Origin: a virus
DNA: 55,748 nt
Strand: one strand, 5' to 3'
IMG/VR virus record: IMGVR_UViG_3300047163_000066
Span: 1-55,748 of that record
A program made the translations under genes and the position numbers. Positions within the stretch are counted from its first letter, which is position 1; each line of letters starts with the position of its first letter. The notes beneath the pieces were generated by a model. That model made no database searches. It was given only the letters and a program-made list of their open reading frames with translations, and was not told the DNA's origin. Positions 1-55,748 of this stretch are shown piece after piece.

Positions 1-228
1 CAGCTCGACTCGCAGCTCTACTCGCAGCTCCGCTCGCAGCTCGACTCGCAGCTCGACTCGCAGCTCGACTCGCAGCTCCGCTCGCAGCTCCACTCGCAGC
101 TCTACTCGCAGCTCCGCTCGCAGCTCTCCTCGCAGCTCTCCTCGCAGCTCTACTCGCAGCTCCGCTCGCAGCTCGACTCGCAGCTCTACTCGCAGCTCCG
201 CTCGCAGCTCCGCTCGCAGCTCCGCTCG
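1..228 (+). repeat. 12-nt tandem repeat, left part of the Q-L-x-S array
   Basis: Nineteen perfect-length units of CAGCTC-NNC-TCG. The order of the variable residue is D Y R D D D R H Y R S S Y R D Y R R R. Only the first two bases of the third codon change. The array starts at the contig edge, so its true left boundary lies at the other end of the window. Confidence 0.97.
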
Positions 229-954
229 ATCTGGGGGAAGCAATGGTCATGGGGGCAGGCCGACGGCTTCTGGATTGCCTGGTACCGATTCGCCATCAGC
301 ATCGGCGTTAAGGTGACCGACGAGCAGGAGCGTCGACTGGCACTTCAAGAGCGGATGGCGGCGTCGTTCTTCTCGGCGCTGTCCATCGGGCAGATCTGCA
401 TCCTCGTCGAGCATCCAACCGTTGCGCAGTTCGACGAACGCTATCGCCTGCATCGCACTGACGGTCCTGCGCTCGCGTGGAGTGACGGCTACGCGGTCTA
501 CGCGGTGCATGGCGTGCGCCTGTCGCCCGAGCTCGGCGCCACGATGGCCGACCGCTCGTTCACGCCGCAGCAGATCCGAGACCACAGCAACGCCGAGGTG
601 CGCCGCGTGCTGGTCGACGTCTACAACGCCGGCGACGGCGGCCGCTATCTGCGAGACATCGGTGCGCAGGTTATCCACGAGGACATCGACGCGCTCGGCC
701 ATCCTCGCCGACTTCTTCGTGTCGACATGCCCGGCGACGAACCCATCGTCGCTATCGAGCTGAAGAACTCGACGCTCGAGCCCGATGGCGAACGCAAGAC
801 GTACACGCTCCGCGTACATCCTGAGCTTCGGCCGCTACCCGTGCCCGGCATCCGCGATGGCCTCGGCGCGGCGCAGTCGATGACCTGCCAGAACGCGGTG
901 GCCTCGACCTTTGGCCTCACCGGCGAGCAGTACCGACCGCAGTTCCAGACGTAG
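1..954 (+). CDS. C-terminal part of Q-L-x-S repeat protein (DUF6745-like), continues from right edge
   Basis: Open from the first base, in frame with the repeat. Nineteen Q-L-x-S tetrapeptides are followed by a Trp-rich linker and a globular C-terminus with LHRTDGPALAWSDGY, YAVHGV, and later PGDEPIV and TFGLTGEQYRP. From memory these match a bacterial family catalogued as DUF6745, in which a low-complexity Q/L/V/W repeat precedes an H-x-x-DGPA domain. The N-terminus is at 55187-55748 across the contig join, so the full protein is at least about 500 residues. No catalytic function is established. It ends the early operon started at 53576 and lies 52 nt before the next small gene. Confidence 0.85.
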   Translation, partial: QLDSQLYSQLRSQLDSQLDSQLDSQLRSQLHSQLYSQLRSQLSSQLSSQLYSQLRSQLDSQLYSQLRSQLRSQLRSIWGKQWSWGQADGFWIAWYRFAISIGVKVTDEQERRLALQERMAASFFSALSIGQICILVEHPTVAQFDERYRLHRTDGPALAWSDGYAVYAVHGVRLSPELGATMADRSFTPQQIRDHSNAEVRRVLVDVYNAGDGGRYLRDIGAQVIHEDIDALGHPRRLLRVDMPGDEPIVAIELKNSTLEPDGERKTYTLRVHPELRPLPVPGIRDGLGAAQSMTCQNAVASTFGLTGEQYRPQFQT

Positions 955-2123: not shown

Positions 2124-3593
2124 ATGGTGCAGCCGGTTCGCACGTTGCCGCACAGCCTGAACCTCGAGGCCTCGATCCTCGGCGGGATTCTCCTGCGCCC
2201 GTCGCTGCTCAGCGAGATGCGAGAGCTCGACGACCTCGAGACCGACGCGTTCTACGACAACCGGCACAAGGTCGTCTTTGTCGCGATGCGAGACCTCGTC
2301 GCGAAGGGCGCGCCGATCGACGTCGTCACGCTCGAGAACGAGATCGAACGCCAGGGCAAGCTCGACGCGGTTGGCGGCATCGCGTTCCTCGGCGAGCTCG
2401 CGCTGCGCGTGCCGACGACCGAGAACGTCGCCGCGTACACGGCGATCGTGATGGCGAAGTACGCCGCGCGTCGGCTCGCGCTCGTCGCCAGCGACCTCGT
2501 GCAGCGCGTCCAGGCGTGGGACGAGGACGACGCCGGCGAGATCATCGGCGAGGCGCTGACGGCGATCGCCGCGCTCGACCGCGCGCGCCCGGACGACGTC
2601 GAGACCATCGGCCAGCTGCTCAAGAAGCGTGCGCGCGAGCTCGAGGACGCGGCCGCGGCACGCGAGCGCGGCGAGACGCTGATGCTCGGCGTGCCGACCG
2701 GCATCGCTGAGCTCGACAGCTTCCTCGGCGGCTATCCGCTCGGCGTCGTCACGCTGCTCGTGGGACGGCCGGCGATGGGGAAGTCGAGCGTCACGCAGGC
2801 CGCGGCCGACGCAACCGCGCACGCAGGTCACGGCGTGCACGTGTTCTCGCAGGAGGACAGCTGGCGGATGATCGCCGACAAGTTCATCGCGAGGCACTCG
2901 AAGATCGGCGGCGCCCCCGAGAGCGGCATCGGTGTATCGCGGCTCCGCAAGGGCAACGTGACAGCGGAAGACGCGCGAGGCATCGCCACCGCGCTCGCGC
3001 GCGCGACCGCGCTTCCCCACTGGCTCATCGACGCCCGCGCCGGCCTCACCGCCGACGAGATCATCCGCAGCGTTCGCCGCCACGCGAAGAAGAACAAGAC
3101 GAAGCTCGTCATCGTCGACTACTGGCAGATCATGGGCCGCCGCCGCGGCGTGCCCGAGCACGAAGCGCTCGACGAGAACATCACGAAGCTCTCGCACGCC
3201 GCGAAGACCGACGACATCGCGTATGTGCTCGCGTCGCAGCTCAATCGCGACGTGGAGAAGCGCGACGACAAGCATCCGCAGCTGAGCGACATCCGAGGCA
3301 GCGGCGCCGGCGAGGAGCGCGCGAAGGTGGTGATCGCGCCGTACCGCGGCTCGTACTACAGCCAGCTGCCCGTTCACGGTTCGGACTGCGATTGCAACCC
3401 CGACGTTGCGCCAGCGCACAAGCCCGGCTGTCCATTCGACGTCGACGTCGATGGGCTCGACGAGTCGCGCGCGCGAGCGGCTCGCATCGCGAGGTACGCC
3501 GAGACGATGCAGATGCTGATCTTGAAGGACAACAACGGGCGCGAGGGCAGGGTCTACGCGAACTGGCGGGGAAGGACCACCGAATGCTGGTGA
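2124..3593 (+). CDS. dnaB: Replicative DNA helicase, DnaB family
   Basis: 489 aa. The N-terminal DnaB domain is residues 1-105 (LPHSLNLEASILGG, VPTTENVAAY). The RecA-like ATPase has Walker A GRPAMGKSS at 214-222, Walker B LVIVDY at 328-333 and SQLNR at 371-375. The usual arginine-containing RESGSIEQDAD stretch is replaced by DIRGSGAGEERA. A C-terminal insertion carries three Cys (422, 424, 436) and His 432, possibly metal-binding. It follows the initiator by 2 nt and should unwind the phage fork as a hexamer. Identification is firm; the role of the Cys insertion is unknown. Confidence 0.93.
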   Translation: MVQPVRTLPHSLNLEASILGGILLRPSLLSEMRELDDLETDAFYDNRHKVVFVAMRDLVAKGAPIDVVTLENEIERQGKLDAVGGIAFLGELALRVPTTENVAAYTAIVMAKYAARRLALVASDLVQRVQAWDEDDAGEIIGEALTAIAALDRARPDDVETIGQLLKKRARELEDAAAARERGETLMLGVPTGIAELDSFLGGYPLGVVTLLVGRPAMGKSSVTQAAADATAHAGHGVHVFSQEDSWRMIADKFIARHSKIGGAPESGIGVSRLRKGNVTAEDARGIATALARATALPHWLIDARAGLTADEIIRSVRRHAKKNKTKLVIVDYWQIMGRRRGVPEHEALDENITKLSHAAKTDDIAYVLASQLNRDVEKRDDKHPQLSDIRGSGAGEERAKVVIAPYRGSYYSQLPVHGSDCDCNPDVAPAHKPGCPFDVDVDGLDESRARAARIARYAETMQMLILKDNNGREGRVYANWRGRTTECW

Positions 3594-17375: not shown

Positions 17376-17789
17376 ATGCAGCGATCTCCATATGCAGAGG
17401 GCTACAACATGTCGCCCGAGACGTGCGCCTTCGTGGCGTGCGTGCAGGGCGCGGGCGCAGCGGCGCCGGTGATCCCGACGACCGCGCACAGCAGCACGTC
17501 GTCGAAGGGCTACATGACGGCGGCGAACAACTTCGCGCTCGCCGGTGGCATCGTGCGCTCGGCCGTTGGCGTCTACAACATCACGCTCAAGGATGGGCTG
17601 CCCGAGGTCTTCGACATCGGGCCGAACATCTGGGGGCCGAACGGCACGTGGGCGACCATCGCCGACTACAACCAGACGACGAAGGTCGTCTCGGTGCTCG
17701 TCTGGGCGCCGGGCGGCGCGGCGGCTGACCTCGCGGCGACCGAGTTCCTGCGGCTCGACATCTCGGGGCAGCTAACGGTGCTTCCGTGA
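17376..17789 (+). CDS. Head decoration-like structural protein (137 aa)
   Basis: ATG 17376 with a good GAAAGGAGA ribosome site. The product is Gly/Ala/Thr-rich and beta-like (NFALAGGIVRSAVGVYNITL, TKVVSVLVWAPGG). Position after the capsid and size fit a decoration or head-stabilising protein. No family signature. Confidence 0.55.
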   Translation: MQRSPYAEGYNMSPETCAFVACVQGAGAAAPVIPTTAHSSTSSKGYMTAANNFALAGGIVRSAVGVYNITLKDGLPEVFDIGPNIWGPNGTWATIADYNQTTKVVSVLVWAPGGAAADLAATEFLRLDISGQLTVLP

Positions 17790-19990
17790 AGCGCGGCCGC
17801 TCGCTTCTCGCTCTCGCTGCCGTCGTTGGCTGCGTGTTTCTTGCCGTGTGGGCGGGCGATACGAGCGTGGATGCGGGCGGCCTCTCTCCTCAAGGCGGGA
17901 CCATCACCTCGGTCGCAGCGGGCTCCGGCCTGACCGGCGGCGGTAGCGGTGGCCCCGTCACCATTTCTGCGAACTTCCAGCTCATCCAGCACACGCCGAT
18001 CAACGCGTGTATCGCTGGCAGCGCCATCAACGCGCTCGGGTCGGACGGAACGCTCACGTGCATCGCTGCGGGCGGCTCGGGCGGCGGCGGCTCGGGCGGC
18101 GGCACGGTCACGAACATCACGACGACGGCACCGATCAGCGGCGGCCCGATCAATACCTCGGGCGCCATCTCGCTGCTCACCGGCACCGGGCTCACGCTCT
18201 CGGGATCGAACCTGATCGCCGACATCGCGACCGGCCTGACCCTGTCCGGCAACCACGTGACCGCCGACCTCGGCACCGGCGTCACGCTCAGCGGCAACCA
18301 CATCATCGCGGATATCTCGACGGGGCTCACCCTGTCGGGGAATCACATCATCGTCGACTCGACGGTGGTGCAGACGCGCGTGAGCGGATCGTGCACGGCG
18401 CCGCAATCGATCCGCGTCGTCAACAGCGTCGGCACCGTGACGTGCACGACCGCGAGCGCGACGACGAGCGTCGGCACCGCGAACTTCATGTCGAAGTACT
18501 CGACCGCGAGCAACTTCACGCCCTCGCTGTGGTTCGACGACGGCACGAACACGAACTACAACTCGATCTTCACGATCGCGGCGGCGACGGGCAACGTCAC
18601 CGACCCAGGCGTCTTCGCGATCGGCCAGACGCTGATCGCCGTGCCGTCCGCTGGCAGCGGCCTCGTGGTCACCGACACGGGCAGCGCGCAGGCCGCTAGC
18701 CACGATCTCGCTGAGGTCATCGCAACGGGCAGCGTCAACAACGGGACGAGCCTGATCTATCGCGGCGTGCACATCGTGCTCAGCGAGGTCATCGGCGGCG
18801 GCAGCGGGGCGACCGCGACGCATATCGGGCTCGACGTCGACACGAGCGGAATCACGACGAGCGGCAGCGCGACGCCGGGGCCGATCATCGGGGTGCGTGC
18901 GAACGCCCCAAGTGCGAAGGCTGCTTTCGAGGCGACGACCGGTGACGTCAACGTTGACACGGGCAACGTCAATGCGTTCAGCGGCAACGGCAACTTCTCG
19001 GAGGTGTTCGCGACGTCTGGCGTATTCGCTACCGGGCTGTTCGACGGCGGAAATCGCGCGTTTTCGATCGCGGGGACCGGCATCAGGAGCTCAGGGGCCA
19101 CGGCTTCGATCGATACGTCGGTGGTGCAGGAGACGAGTTCGGCCCTCGTGACCGGATGCGGAGCGGGCTCGGCGCTCGGCGCGATCTCGCAGGCAGGCGC
19201 TCCAACGTGCGTCGCGACCGGAGGCCTTTCGGGCGGCACGGCGAACCTGCTCACGGCATGGAGTAGCTCGACCGGCGTCGTTCCGACCGTCACGACCGAC
19301 GACACGACGACCACGGGCACGTGCAACGACTACGCGCTGCCCGCGAACACGCTCGTGCTTCGGAGCAACTGCTCGACGCTCACGGGCGTCACGGGCGGTG
19401 TGGAGGGTCGGCTCCTGCTCGTCGAGAACGAGAGCGCGACAACGAACCTCACGATCTCCAACGAAGCCGCGGGCAGCACGACCGCCGGCGATCGATTCAC
19501 GATGTCCAGCTCCTCGAACTGGGTGCTGAACAACAACACGCGCGCATACGCGATGTTTGTCTACAACGGCTCGGCCGCGCGCTGGCAGCAGTTCACAATG
19601 TCGCCGGGCAACGGCACGACAGCCCCGGGCACGCAGACCTTCACCAACGTCTCCGCGACGACGCAGGTGTCGGCGCCCACGGTCACCGCGAGCAGCGTCC
19701 TGTCGCTGACGGGCACGGGCCACTACAAGGCGACCGGAACGGCACCGGCACTTACCAGCTGCGGGACCTCGCCGACGGTGACCGGCGCGGATCCGGGCGG
19801 CACCGTCGTGGAGGGATCGACGGCCACCGGCTGCACAGTCACGTTCGCGGCCACCTACACCACGGCGCCGACCTGCGCGGTCACCCCTCGCGGCGTCCAG
19901 GCGGCCTTCACCTACTCGACCTCGGCGACCGCGCTGACCGTCACCAACACGAGCGCCGAGACGTTCGATTACGTCTGCGTGGGGCACTAG
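17786..19990 (+). CDS. Large fibre-like protein with N-terminal signal/anchor
   Basis: 734 aa from GTG 17786. A basic start and hydrophobic stretch (MKRGRSLLALAAVVGCVFLA) look like a Sec signal or membrane anchor, unusual in a virion gene. Glycine loops follow, then four imperfect ~16-residue repeats of TGLTLSGNHIIADI type (nt ~18185-18360), as in trimeric fibre shafts. The C-terminus has paired Cys and beta-rich Thr/Ser sequence. Likely a tail fibre or surface adhesin. A moron-type secreted product is the alternative. Confidence 0.6.
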   Translation: MKRGRSLLALAAVVGCVFLAVWAGDTSVDAGGLSPQGGTITSVAAGSGLTGGGSGGPVTISANFQLIQHTPINACIAGSAINALGSDGTLTCIAAGGSGGGGSGGGTVTNITTTAPISGGPINTSGAISLLTGTGLTLSGSNLIADIATGLTLSGNHVTADLGTGVTLSGNHIIADISTGLTLSGNHIIVDSTVVQTRVSGSCTAPQSIRVVNSVGTVTCTTASATTSVGTANFMSKYSTASNFTPSLWFDDGTNTNYNSIFTIAAATGNVTDPGVFAIGQTLIAVPSAGSGLVVTDTGSAQAASHDLAEVIATGSVNNGTSLIYRGVHIVLSEVIGGGSGATATHIGLDVDTSGITTSGSATPGPIIGVRANAPSAKAAFEATTGDVNVDTGNVNAFSGNGNFSEVFATSGVFATGLFDGGNRAFSIAGTGIRSSGATASIDTSVVQETSSALVTGCGAGSALGAISQAGAPTCVATGGLSGGTANLLTAWSSSTGVVPTVTTDDTTTTGTCNDYALPANTLVLRSNCSTLTGVTGGVEGRLLLVENESATTNLTISNEAAGSTTAGDRFTMSSSSNWVLNNNTRAYAMFVYNGSAARWQQFTMSPGNGTTAPGTQTFTNVSATTQVSAPTVTASSVLSLTGTGHYKATGTAPALTSCGTSPTVTGADPGGTVVEGSTATGCTVTFAATYTTAPTCAVTPRGVQAAFTYSTSATALTVTNTSAETFDYVCVGH

Positions 19991-37790: not shown

Positions 37791-38308
37791 TCCGCTACGA
37801 ACGTCGCGATATTTCCGACCTGCGTCCTGATCCGGCAAATCCGCGCACGATCACGCAGGCGGCCAGCAAGGCGTTGCGCGCATCGCTGAAGCGCTTCGGT
37901 CTTGTTCAGCCCGTGATCGTCAACGAGCGCACAGGAAATGTGGTCGGCGGGCACCAACGCGTAGCGGCCGCTCGCGCCAATGGCGAGACGGAGATCGATG
38001 TCGCGGTAGGAGATTGGTCGCCAGCTGACGAGAGGGCGCTCAACGTGACGCTCAACAACCTCGCAGCGCAAGGTACGTTCGAGGGCGTCGCGAGTTATCT
38101 GAGCGGCGTCGACATGGGGCTCGCGACGCTGAAGGAGTTGCGTCTCGATGTGCTCGTGCTCGGCGATGATGGTGACGAGAAGAAATCGACGAGCGATCGT
38201 CAACTCGAATACCGCGTGGTCATCTCGTGCGTCGACGAAACGCATCAGGCGGAGTTGCTGGAACGATTCGACGCAGAGGGCCTTAGCGCGAAGCCGCTGA
38301 TCGTATGA
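37787..38308 (+). CDS. ParB-like N-terminal domain protein (173 aa)
   Basis: ATG 37787 (ATGA). The ParB/sulfiredoxin-like fold has DLRPDPANPRTITQA, LVQPVIVNERTGNVVGGHQR (GGHQR at about 54-58) and ALNVTLNNLAAQG. It lacks the C-terminal HTH and dimerisation domains of partition ParB. Phage versions often accompany DNA-modification enzymes and may use nucleotides or nick DNA. It overlaps the downstream ABC-GNAT gene (ATGA), so they are probably functionally linked. Confidence 0.8.
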   Translation: MIRYERRDISDLRPDPANPRTITQAASKALRASLKRFGLVQPVIVNERTGNVVGGHQRVAAARANGETEIDVAVGDWSPADERALNVTLNNLAAQGTFEGVASYLSGVDMGLATLKELRLDVLVLGDDGDEKKSTSDRQLEYRVVISCVDETHQAELLERFDAEGLSAKPLIV

Positions 38309-39417
38309 GAGTTGATGTCACGGTCAGCGTCGAGCAGTCGGCGACGGCGCGCATGCGTCAGGTGTCGGCCATGTTCGATGCTCCTATCGCCAAGAAAGCG
38401 GCTCGAACGTGGTCCGGCGAAGTGCCGATCGAAGATCGGCCGTGGTCGATCGGTCTCGTCGTTGGTCCGAGCGGCGCAGGCAAGAGCACGGTGGCGCGAC
38501 AGATGTTCGGCGAGTCGCACACGACCGCATGGGATCAGCGAAGCGTTGTCGACAACTTCCCTCGCGAGATGTCGATTGAGACGATAAGCACGGCGCTTTC
38601 AGCGGTCGGCTTCAATACGATCCCAGCATGGGTTCGTCCGTACGGCACGCTGTCCAACGGCGAGAAGTTCCGCTGTGACCTGGCGCGGACAATCGTCGCC
38701 GAGCAATCTCTCGTATGGGTTGACGAATTCACGAGCGTCGTCGATCGACAAGTCGCCAAGATTGGCTCCCACGCACTCGCGCGCTACGTCCGATCGCAGC
38801 CGGGCCGGCGTTTCGTCGCGGTCGGCTGTCACTACGACGTGATCGATTGGTTGCAGCCAGACTGGATCCTAGAGCCGGCGGACATGGCGTTCGCATGGAG
38901 GTCGGTTCAACGTCGACCCGAGATCCGAGGCGATATCCGACGAGCGCCCCGGTCGCTCTGGCGTCTGTTCGCTCCCTATCACTATATGAGCGCGGACTTG
39001 TCAGCGAGCGCGAGATGCTTCGCGGTCTACGTCGATGATCGACCGATCGCGTTCTGCGGCGTGCTGCCATTGCCGGTATCTCGCGGATCACGAGCAGGAA
39101 CGGCGATCGATCGCGTGTCTCGCGTCGTCGTGCTGCCCGACTGGCAAGGCTGCGGCGTCGTGTTTCGACTGCTCGAATCTCTCGGCGCCGCCTATCTGGC
39201 CGTCGGGCGTCGCTTCCGCAACTATCCAGCGCACCCAGCGTTCATTCGCGCGCACCAACGCAAGGCGTGCTGGCGTGAGACAAACACGGCAAGTCAAGGC
39301 AGCAGCAGCAGCAGCAGCGGAATCGGATCGGCTGGGGGGCGCAACTGCGCCGTCTTCGAGTACGTCGGCGCTGCGATGGATCGACGTCAGGCGGAGCGAC
39401 TGCTCGCGCTAGGCTGA
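38305..39417 (+). CDS. ABC-type ATPase fused to GNAT domain (370 aa)
   Basis: Walker A GPSGAGKST (54-62), ABC signature LSNGEKFR (116-123), Walker B LVWVDEF (136-142) and switch His in VGCHYD (~176) form one ABC cassette without a transmembrane part. Residues ~220-370 are GNAT-like (IAFCGVLPLP, VVVLPDWQGCGVVFRLLESL). A Ser stretch from six AGC codons is near residue 335. Coupled to ParB-like 37787. The pair probably acts on DNA or another macromolecule, not in transport. The substrate is unknown. Confidence 0.78.
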   Translation: MRVDVTVSVEQSATARMRQVSAMFDAPIAKKAARTWSGEVPIEDRPWSIGLVVGPSGAGKSTVARQMFGESHTTAWDQRSVVDNFPREMSIETISTALSAVGFNTIPAWVRPYGTLSNGEKFRCDLARTIVAEQSLVWVDEFTSVVDRQVAKIGSHALARYVRSQPGRRFVAVGCHYDVIDWLQPDWILEPADMAFAWRSVQRRPEIRGDIRRAPRSLWRLFAPYHYMSADLSASARCFAVYVDDRPIAFCGVLPLPVSRGSRAGTAIDRVSRVVVLPDWQGCGVVFRLLESLGAAYLAVGRRFRNYPAHPAFIRAHQRKACWRETNTASQGSSSSSSGIGSAGGRNCAVFEYVGAAMDRRQAERLLALG

Positions 39418-54851: not shown

Positions 54852-55184
54852 ATGCACAAGCTCAAGTTCGACGGGTTTCAGGCGCGACAAGGGGACGTTT
54901 TTGTCATCGAGGTGGACGACATCCCGTCGAAGACGACCGAGGTCGCGCGCGAGGACGAAAACATCGTGCTCGCGCATGGTGAAGTGACTGGCCATCGTCA
55001 TCGCATTCCTTCGCGCCACGCGACGCTCGTGCGCACGGAGATGGATTCGCGCTTCATGCGCGTAACGGCGCCGGTGAAGCTGTTCCACGAGGAACACAGC
55101 GCCATCGCGATTCCGGCCGGCAAGTACGTCGCGACGATTCAGCGCGAGTACCACCCCGAAGCCATCCGCGCCGTGGAGGACTGA
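54852..55184 (+). CDS. Conserved GEVTGH-motif protein (110 aa), partner of the repeat gene
   Basis: ATG 54852 with a strong GGAAGAGGAGACAGGGAAG leader. It contains ARQGDVFVIEVDDIPSKTTE, IVLAHGEVTGHRHRIPS, FMRVTAPVKLFHEEHSAIAI and YVATIQREYHPEAIRAVED. From memory, proteins with GEVTGHxHR...HEEH...QREY often neighbour DUF6745-type genes in bacteria. The paired His (GHRHR, HEEH) suggest a cupin-like metal site. Its stop is 2 nt before the repeat gene. Confidence 0.72.
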   Translation: MHKLKFDGFQARQGDVFVIEVDDIPSKTTEVAREDENIVLAHGEVTGHRHRIPSRHATLVRTEMDSRFMRVTAPVKLFHEEHSAIAIPAGKYVATIQREYHPEAIRAVED

Positions 55185-55186
55185 CC

Positions 55187-55748
55187 ATGACGCGCATCAC
55201 CAAGCTCACCTCCGAGCAAGAGACTGCGCTTGTGTCGTTCCGCGAGGAGTGGCGCGGCATCGGGACGCGAACCGGGCATGACAAGGACACTGCTGCGCTT
55301 GGGCGCGCGGCTGCGACGGATGCATACGCAGAGGTCGGCGCTCAACCGCCCCTCGTGCTGTGGGCGCAGTCGCCGTTGCAAGCGCTGTTGATGGGCTGGG
55401 TGATTCAGGAAGCGGCGAAGCGGGCGCCTGAGGCGCCCGCTTATGACGACTCGCAGCTCCGCTCGCAGCTCCGCTCGCAGCTCTCCTCGCAGCTCGACTC
55501 GCAGCTCCGCTCGCAGCTCTCCTCGCAGCTCGACTCGCAGCTCGACTCGCAGCTCGACTCGCAGCTCTACTCGCAGCTCGACTCGCAGCTCGACTCGCAG
55601 CTCCGCTCGCAGCTCCACTCGCAGCTCTACTCGCAGCTCTACTCGCAGCTCCGCTCGCAGCTCGACTCGCAGCTCTACTCGCAGCTCCGCTCGCAGCTCG
55701 CCTCGCAGCTCGACTCGCAGCTCGACTCGCAGCTCCGCTCGCAGCTCC
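55187..55748 (+). CDS. N-terminal part of Q-L-x-S repeat protein (DUF6745-like), runs off right edge
   Basis: ATG 55187. About 88 residues of globular start (EEWRGIGTRTGHDKDTAALG, PLVLWAQSPLQALLMGWVIQ) lead into the Q-L-x-S array and the frame is open at the last base. The left edge resumes the same array and adds the DUF6745-like C-terminus (1-954). The missing bridge must be 5+12n nt to keep frame and unit phase. The PP-hydrophobic-W-x-SP segment is typical of the family N-terminus. Confidence 0.85.
   Translation, partial: MTRITKLTSEQETALVSFREEWRGIGTRTGHDKDTAALGRAAATDAYAEVGAQPPLVLWAQSPLQALLMGWVIQEAAKRAPEAPAYDDSQLRSQLRSQLSSQLDSQLRSQLSSQLDSQLDSQLDSQLYSQLDSQLDSQLRSQLHSQLYSQLYSQLRSQLDSQLYSQLRSQLASQLDSQLDSQLRSQL
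55454..55748 (+). repeat. 12-nt tandem repeat, right part of the Q-L-x-S array
   Basis: Twenty-four complete CAGCTC-NNC-TCG units and a 7-nt partial. The variable residue order is R R S D R S D D D Y D D R H Y Y R D Y R A D D R. With the left edge at least 43 units exist. Confidence 0.97.

Follow-up and report, generated by a model that had tools for sequence, protein, structure and literature searches.

A homogenized short-unit array with one or two variable codons in a DUF6745 gene of uncultivated phages

The array gene and its neighborhood

The window analyzed here is the whole stretch of a virus record of 55,748 bp (IMGVR_UViG_3300047163_000066), and each of its ends lies within a short-period repeat. 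The program TRF finds a 12-nt array at 55447-55747 (25.1 copies), and a second part of the array at the opposite contig end, at 1-228 (19 copies). The two contig ends are read here as the halves of one gene, with an N-terminal domain and the start of the array at 55187-55748, and the end of the array and a DUF6745 domain at 1-954, because the relatives carry the N-domain, the array, and DUF6745 in a single open frame. The features of the locus are as follows:

54852..55184, + strand: partner gene, 110 aa, an "HEEH" protein with invariant GD, GExTGHxH, and HxxH motifs, matching phrog_27831 (unknown function, E 7e-15)
55187..55450, + strand: start of the array gene, with the ATG and the N-terminal domain (~88 aa), from the translation and its alignment with the N-domain of 24 relatives
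55451..55748, + strand: 5' part of the array, with 24 SQLx units in full (55451-55738), followed by a cut one; the order of x is RRSDRSDDDYDDRHYYRDYRADDR
1..225, + strand: 3' part of the array, with QLD (1-9), which is a cut unit, followed by 18 SQLx units in full (10-225)
226..954, + strand: end of the array gene, with a W-rich region (WGQADGFWIAWYRF) and DUF6745 (Pfam PF20530), stop codon at 952-954

Read in register, the unit is TCG-CAG-CTC-NNC, and its nine-base scaffold (TCGCAGCTC) is found in 42/42 complete units. All the variation falls in the x codon (CGC 14, GAC 13, TAC 8, TCC 4, CAC 2, and GCC 1; n = 42), with zero variation at the silent positions S3, Q3, L3, and x3, and the A of CAG is invariant throughout. 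The preliminary description had placed a 12-nt array of at least 43 units at 55454-55748, on a scaffold unchanged even at the synonymous positions and with only x varying, and this account holds: the array is found by TRF at that place and continues at the contig start, which gives 42 complete units, all with identical scaffolds, and a cut unit at each contig end. As the contig ends inside the array, the complete units cover only its two outer parts. The pattern is not due to chance, because unrelated minisatellites with the same DNA pattern have a near-invariant x and vary at the silent sites.

The C-terminal domain clearly belongs to the DUF6745 family, its profile score (E 1.6e-37, 129.2 bits) being well above the curated Pfam cut-off of 27 bits, over residues 127-277 of the 3' fragment (nucleotides ~379-831). 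The array lies outside the Pfam model, the family has no known function, and no paper on DUF6745 or on the repeat strings was found in the open-access literature. When the window protein and its relatives were scanned with Pfam, no nucleotide-binding oligomerization domain was recovered, nor was a Type I restriction S-subunit domain found in the Pfam scans. Low-complexity matches to DUF826, the trigger factor, and MSCRAMM proteins were dismissed as compositional, and those recovered by PADLOC were dismissed because they arise from the repeat regions.

The stop codon of the partner gene lies 2 nt upstream of the ATG of the array gene. In an alignment of 18 partner proteins (the window and 17 relatives), H48, H50, H79, H82, and E44 are invariant, and the motifs G-D, G-E-x-T-G-H-x-H, and H-x-x-H suggest that the partner may bind a metal. 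A gene with these motifs is present in 39 of the 50 relative loci that have flanks, and the partner also accompanies DUF6745 genes that lack the array, in Streptomyces, Nonomuraea, and the Microcystis phage Ma-LMM01, for example. In a Deinococcus relative, leucine-rich repeats precede DUF6745, and the partner gene is adjacent. This DUF6745 gene is carried by a plasmid (L124:2323-3324) and also adjoins genes of the STM4011-4013 families; in Streptomyces (L121), the pair adjoins genes of the STM4014/4015 families.

A DnaB-like helicase is encoded near the array gene in the window, at 2124-3593, a RepA-like initiator lies near its counterpart in prophiGD102-1, and a uracil-DNA glycosylase near the DUF6745 gene of Ma-LMM01. 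This proximity to genes of replication and nucleotide metabolism suggests that the array gene and its partner may act early, and inside the cell.

Other repeats occur elsewhere in the window, including a perfect (CAGGAA)8 tandem repeat at 1705-1752, within an open frame at 1186-2121, and two tandem repeats, at 18071-18103 (15-nt units of the Gly/Ser type) and 18213-18358 (45-nt units), within an open frame at 17786-19990, which may be a structural gene. The gene at 38305-39417 has a strong match to phrog_11143 (unknown function, E 1.8e-93), together with a weak match resembling an ABC transporter.

Relatives and the tempo of rearrangement

A degenerate SQLx DNA pattern recovered 110 stretches from IMG/VR, many of which encode the N-domain, array, and DUF6745 architecture, while the remainder are stand-alone short open reading frames or unrelated minisatellites. 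A similar scan of bacterial genomes returned 56 stretches, two of which have this architecture (in Muricauda sp. and a Dependentiae bin); L131, in Muricauda sp. CAU 1633, is a candidate prophage locus. Searching IMG/VR with the DUF6745 part yielded 344 relatives. Only two array-bearing records were found among 50,697 phage records, and the Microcystis phages have the DUF6745 gene and no array. This is, then, a widespread phage gene that is rare among cultivated phages, and in which one or two residues of a short repeat are kept diverse, while the rest is homogenized, including the silent DNA.

In the 80 loci retained from the DUF6745 scan, unit length was analyzed in 60 arrays, and is 12 nt in 52 of these and 9 nt in the other eight. 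The relatives share a common plan, in which a frozen frame carries a single variable codon or two neighboring ones, with scaffolds that differ among the phages (SQL, DQL, and DSV, as well as QL, SV, NL, QV, AV, AT, SL, GL, AA, and A). Most relatives have two variable codons, x being mostly R, G, or W, followed by y, which is mostly D, A, or G, and the SQLx array of the window follows the same plan, y being always Ser. The number of units varies widely, from roughly 5 to 80. Two of the arrays, L063 (45 units) and L070 (50), are very long or multiply repeated, and the repeats of L063 include larger blocks, with a linked SPL unit. Of the 79 relative loci inspected, approximately one quarter stop at the array or close to it, as the window does, which is a warning that arrays of this kind break short-read assemblies.

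The comparison of close relatives indicates how rapidly the arrays change. When the same phage was recovered in two samples, the arrays were identical (L208/L210 and L226/L255). In one pair with identical flanks, the arrays have 32 and 51 units and are one block apart (L219 and L221), and in another the flanks are identical and the arrays different (L113 and contig 3300025904_000004). At about 6% divergence, the order of the units is fully reshuffled: the two phages L233 and L237 differ at 25 of 206 C-domain codons, and their arrays (30 and 28 units) are wholly re-ordered, with the same set of codons and an AGC-GTC scaffold identical in 58/58 units, with zero silent change. The strains compared in these pairs are metagenome assemblies, in which repeats can be collapsed, and an assembly error is possible for any one pair. 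Residue order is common only to near-identical phages; the shared order in distant phages that the preliminary description had named as evidence against its reading was not seen.

Predicted structure, copying, and selection

In the AlphaFold model of a full-length relative (L079), the N-domain and DUF6745 are mostly predicted with a pLDDT of 80-95, and the array, with a pLDDT of 40-50, as two long helices and a connecting loop. Modeled alone, with 13 others aligned, the array forms one helix of 94 residues (pLDDT 84, pTM 0.38). A search for periodic ladders of x at lags of 1-16, by identity, charge, and aromatic residues, found none (the largest z was 2.5 among 64 tests). The Q-L-x-S solenoid envisaged in the preliminary description is not supported by these low-confidence and single-helix models, nor by the x residues, and an extended helix or a helical hairpin is the more probable form of the arm. 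For the DUF6745 model, the fold search of the PDB returned nothing below E 0.6, and the matches among viral models were limited to the DUF6745 proteins of Microcystis and uncultured phages, while the profiles of the partner and DUF6745 had no significant match to PDB sequences.

A helix of this kind might serve as a structural spacer or stalk, for which length and regularity would be important, and the variety at x and y would be selected on physical grounds only, to favor solubility, or prevent register lock or aggregation. The predicted helix is consistent with this, as are the weak matches of the arrays, confined to the repeat region, to Type I restriction S subunits (E ~1e-5 to 4e-5), in which the spacer is a helix encoded by 12-bp TAEL repeats (PMC3874165), and the non-repetitive region, apparently helical by eye, which the array-less relatives have in place of the array. 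However, Gly ranks with the most frequent residues at x, the number of units ranges widely, and a spacer requires neither the 3-7 different residues found per array nor their complete re-ordering between close relatives, all of which makes this explanation a rather unlikely one.

The composition of the arrays reflects the copying of whole units. Silent changes of the scaffold are linked to particular x codons, as in L065 (CTC-GGC) and L076 (CTC-AGT), and units must therefore be copied whole, with the silent change traveling with one x codon. The repeated strings of x exceed those of shuffled arrays (z 8-10, with a recurrence spacing of 1-37 units), which points to block duplication. Arg at x is encoded by more than one codon in 0/53 arrays, and two codons for one residue occur in 6/119 array-residue cases in the SQLx arrays. 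Inside each array, the codons for Q, L, and S do not vary, although they differ from phage to phage, and the unit of conservation is thus the array, rather than the codon. The unit amplification proposed in the preliminary description is borne out by these linked variants and duplications, and by the uniform scaffolds of the window, and the random synonymous changes in the Q, L, and S codons, which would have told against it, were not seen.

The 56 arrays assigned to this gene by context, a few of which may in fact stand alone, have heterozygosities of 0.59/0.41/0.15 across the codon positions of x, and of 0.02/0.01/0.03 for the silent S3/Q3/L3, and they hold 200 extra x residues and 19 silent scaffold variants. 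This relationship is reversed in the control minisatellites, unrelated sequences with the same DNA pattern, in which heterozygosity is 0.01-0.09 at x, 0.13 at S3, and 0.11 at Q3. Among the 2,932 units of 110 arrays, the variants present in at least two units comprise 375 non-silent and 25 silent changes, a per-site ratio of 4.9, while the single-copy variants comprise 67 non-silent and 24 silent changes, a per-site ratio of 0.92 (Fisher p 2e-7), in a within-array, non-phylogenetic test that leaves the copying process unmodeled and is powerless for any single array, including that of the window. The contrast persists after the trimming of two (p 0.008) or three units (p 0.001) from each end, and is non-significant in the SQLx arrays alone (p 0.28), in part because only exact SQL units were retained. 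The data support diversifying selection on defined codons. The singletons strike silent and non-silent sites equally, and the input of mutations thus appears to be untargeted. Of the "targeted or selected variation" suggested at the outset, then, the selected part is upheld, and the targeted part is not supported, given these unbiased singletons and the search of the record, in which no reverse transcriptase was found.

These ratios also bear on the interpretation of the array as a neutral minisatellite, in which the scaffold residues would be constrained, and x and y merely tolerant. Unit copying and homogenization would suffice to produce uniform scaffolds, and tolerance would account for the variation of x. 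Such an array should nevertheless vary at its silent sites as it does at x, whereas the multi-copy variants amount to 0.08 per silent site, in comparison with 0.38 over all non-silent sites, and higher still at x and y alone, with unbiased singletons. The alphabet of x is also narrow in the SQLx arrays (R 18%, K 0.5%, with T, P, and the aliphatic residues near absent), and neutrality is accordingly considered improbable.

A function of the 12-nt repeats as DNA, such as iterons or binding sites, with the protein incidental, would fit the identity of the units in DNA and the location of the gene near replication genes, including the DnaB-like helicase. It is highly improbable, given that the scaffold DNA is completely different between phages, while the reading frame and its openness, the multiple-of-3 unit length, and the residue alphabet are kept. 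Targeted mutagenesis of the x codon, by a diversity-generating retroelement, for example, is the least credible of these alternatives and was rejected: the variable codons of the window are all NNC, a class free of stop codons, as are the AAY codons mutated by retroelements, but no reverse transcriptase (PF00078) was found in the 55.7-kb record, which may be incomplete, the A of CAG is invariant, each amino acid has one codon per array, silent changes are linked to x codons, and the singletons are not confined to x and y. The targets of these retroelements share with the array the presence of variable codons in a phage protein, and differ in that variation here extends beyond adenine sites and is spread by whole-unit copying. 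A phase-variation locus was also rejected, given that units of 9 or 12 nt preserve the frame.

Possible role and comparison with known systems

The explanation favored here, and judged somewhat better than even overall, is that the array would serve as the hypervariable arm in a phage protein, composed of the N-domain, the short-period array, and DUF6745, and made beside a small partner protein. Whole units, with the scaffold and its variable codons, are copied and dispersed in blocks, which keeps the scaffold DNA of any one array uniform, while separate phages differ in theirs. Statistically, new mutations hit silent and non-silent sites alike, and variants become common only at a single residue, or two neighboring residues, of each unit, where they are drawn from a narrow set of amino acids (at x, these are D, Y, R, G, W, H, S, E, and N, and at y, they are D, A, G, or S). 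This evolutionary mechanism, of whole-unit copying and selected diversity at x and y, is well supported.

Selection would maintain the diversity of the arm through its contact with a changing partner, and we infer recognition in an arms race as the function. The contact of the arm and its target are guesses, the likeliest candidate being a molecule of the host or of a rival phage, encountered inside the cell and early in the infection. The leucine-rich repeats that precede DUF6745 in Deinococcus are counted in favor of this reading. The basic function of the protein does not require the array, given the existence of array-less relatives in the Microcystis phages and Streptomyces. If the arm does bind a host or rival molecule, the target would imply a long-running conflict that has not yet been described, and the arrays would represent a natural library of variants. 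A more ambitious proposal, which is only tentatively advanced, is that the two-gene module may define a previously undescribed kind of recognition protein in phages, in which short units with one or two variable residues would make up a combinatorial and rapidly re-ordered arm, whose binding would keep pace with a host defense or target. The module would then be the phage equivalent of the hypervariable repeats of immune receptors, and possibly have a readable code that relates units to targets.

The likeness to TALE repeats suggested in the preliminary description holds for the form of the array. These repeats are helical DNA-binding units of ~34 residues, with variable residues at positions 12 and 13 and a known base code. 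The shared features are an invariant scaffold, an adjacent pair of variable residues per unit (two adjacent codons in 54/54 of the relatives' arrays that have two), and differences carried by the order of the array. The unit length and the phage context differ, and membership of the TALE family was ruled out, given that the units, of four residues in the window and three or four in the relatives, are too short for the TALE fold. Pentapeptide repeats were likewise ruled out by the period of four residues (three in some relatives), rather than five.

The closest parallel in the mode of evolution, by analogy, is the WD40 sensor of the fungal incompatibility receptors. The NOD-like receptors het-d and het-e of Podospora have WD40 repeats with high internal conservation (PMC12222747), and the present arrays also consist of near-identical DNA repeats, in all 42 complete units of the window and all 58 of the re-ordered pair. 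The two systems share the concerted evolution of near-identical repeats with a few hypervariable codons under diversifying selection, as well as length polymorphism and the failure of short-read assemblies on the repeats (PMC12222747). They differ in that the fungal repeats are propeller units of ~40 aa in a eukaryotic immune receptor, whereas the phage units have 3-4 residues, and no receptor or nucleotide-binding domain was found in the array protein. The pattern of a homogenized repeat with diverse residues is, then, one known from fungal receptors for non-self recognition.

In unit size, the closest parallel, again as an analogy, is the helical TAEL spacer of the Type IC restriction S subunits, in which a 12-bp repeat encodes a tetrapeptide, as in the array, and forms a helix, as the array is predicted to do, and the number of repeats shifts by unequal crossing-over (PMC3874165). 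The spacer differs from the array in having two or three invariant copies and no hypervariable residue (PMC3874165), and the array protein lacks the target-recognition domains of an S subunit. The array protein belongs neither with the fungal WD40 receptors nor with the TAEL spacers, and no known system with such short variable-codon units was found in the open-access literature.

Stand-alone SQLx mini-proteins of ~70-126 aa, often of the form MKQIN-[SQLx]n, were also observed (L021, L028, L034, L036, L040, L064, L073, L108, L114, and others), with several paralogs per freshwater viral contig, which have conserved 5' flanks and a different order of x. L108, for example, differs from L064, L085, L099, and L117 by changes in x and a deletion of two units between identical flanks. 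Short open reading frames resembling SQLx are also present in a Pacearchaeota archaeon genome bin (L142 and L166).
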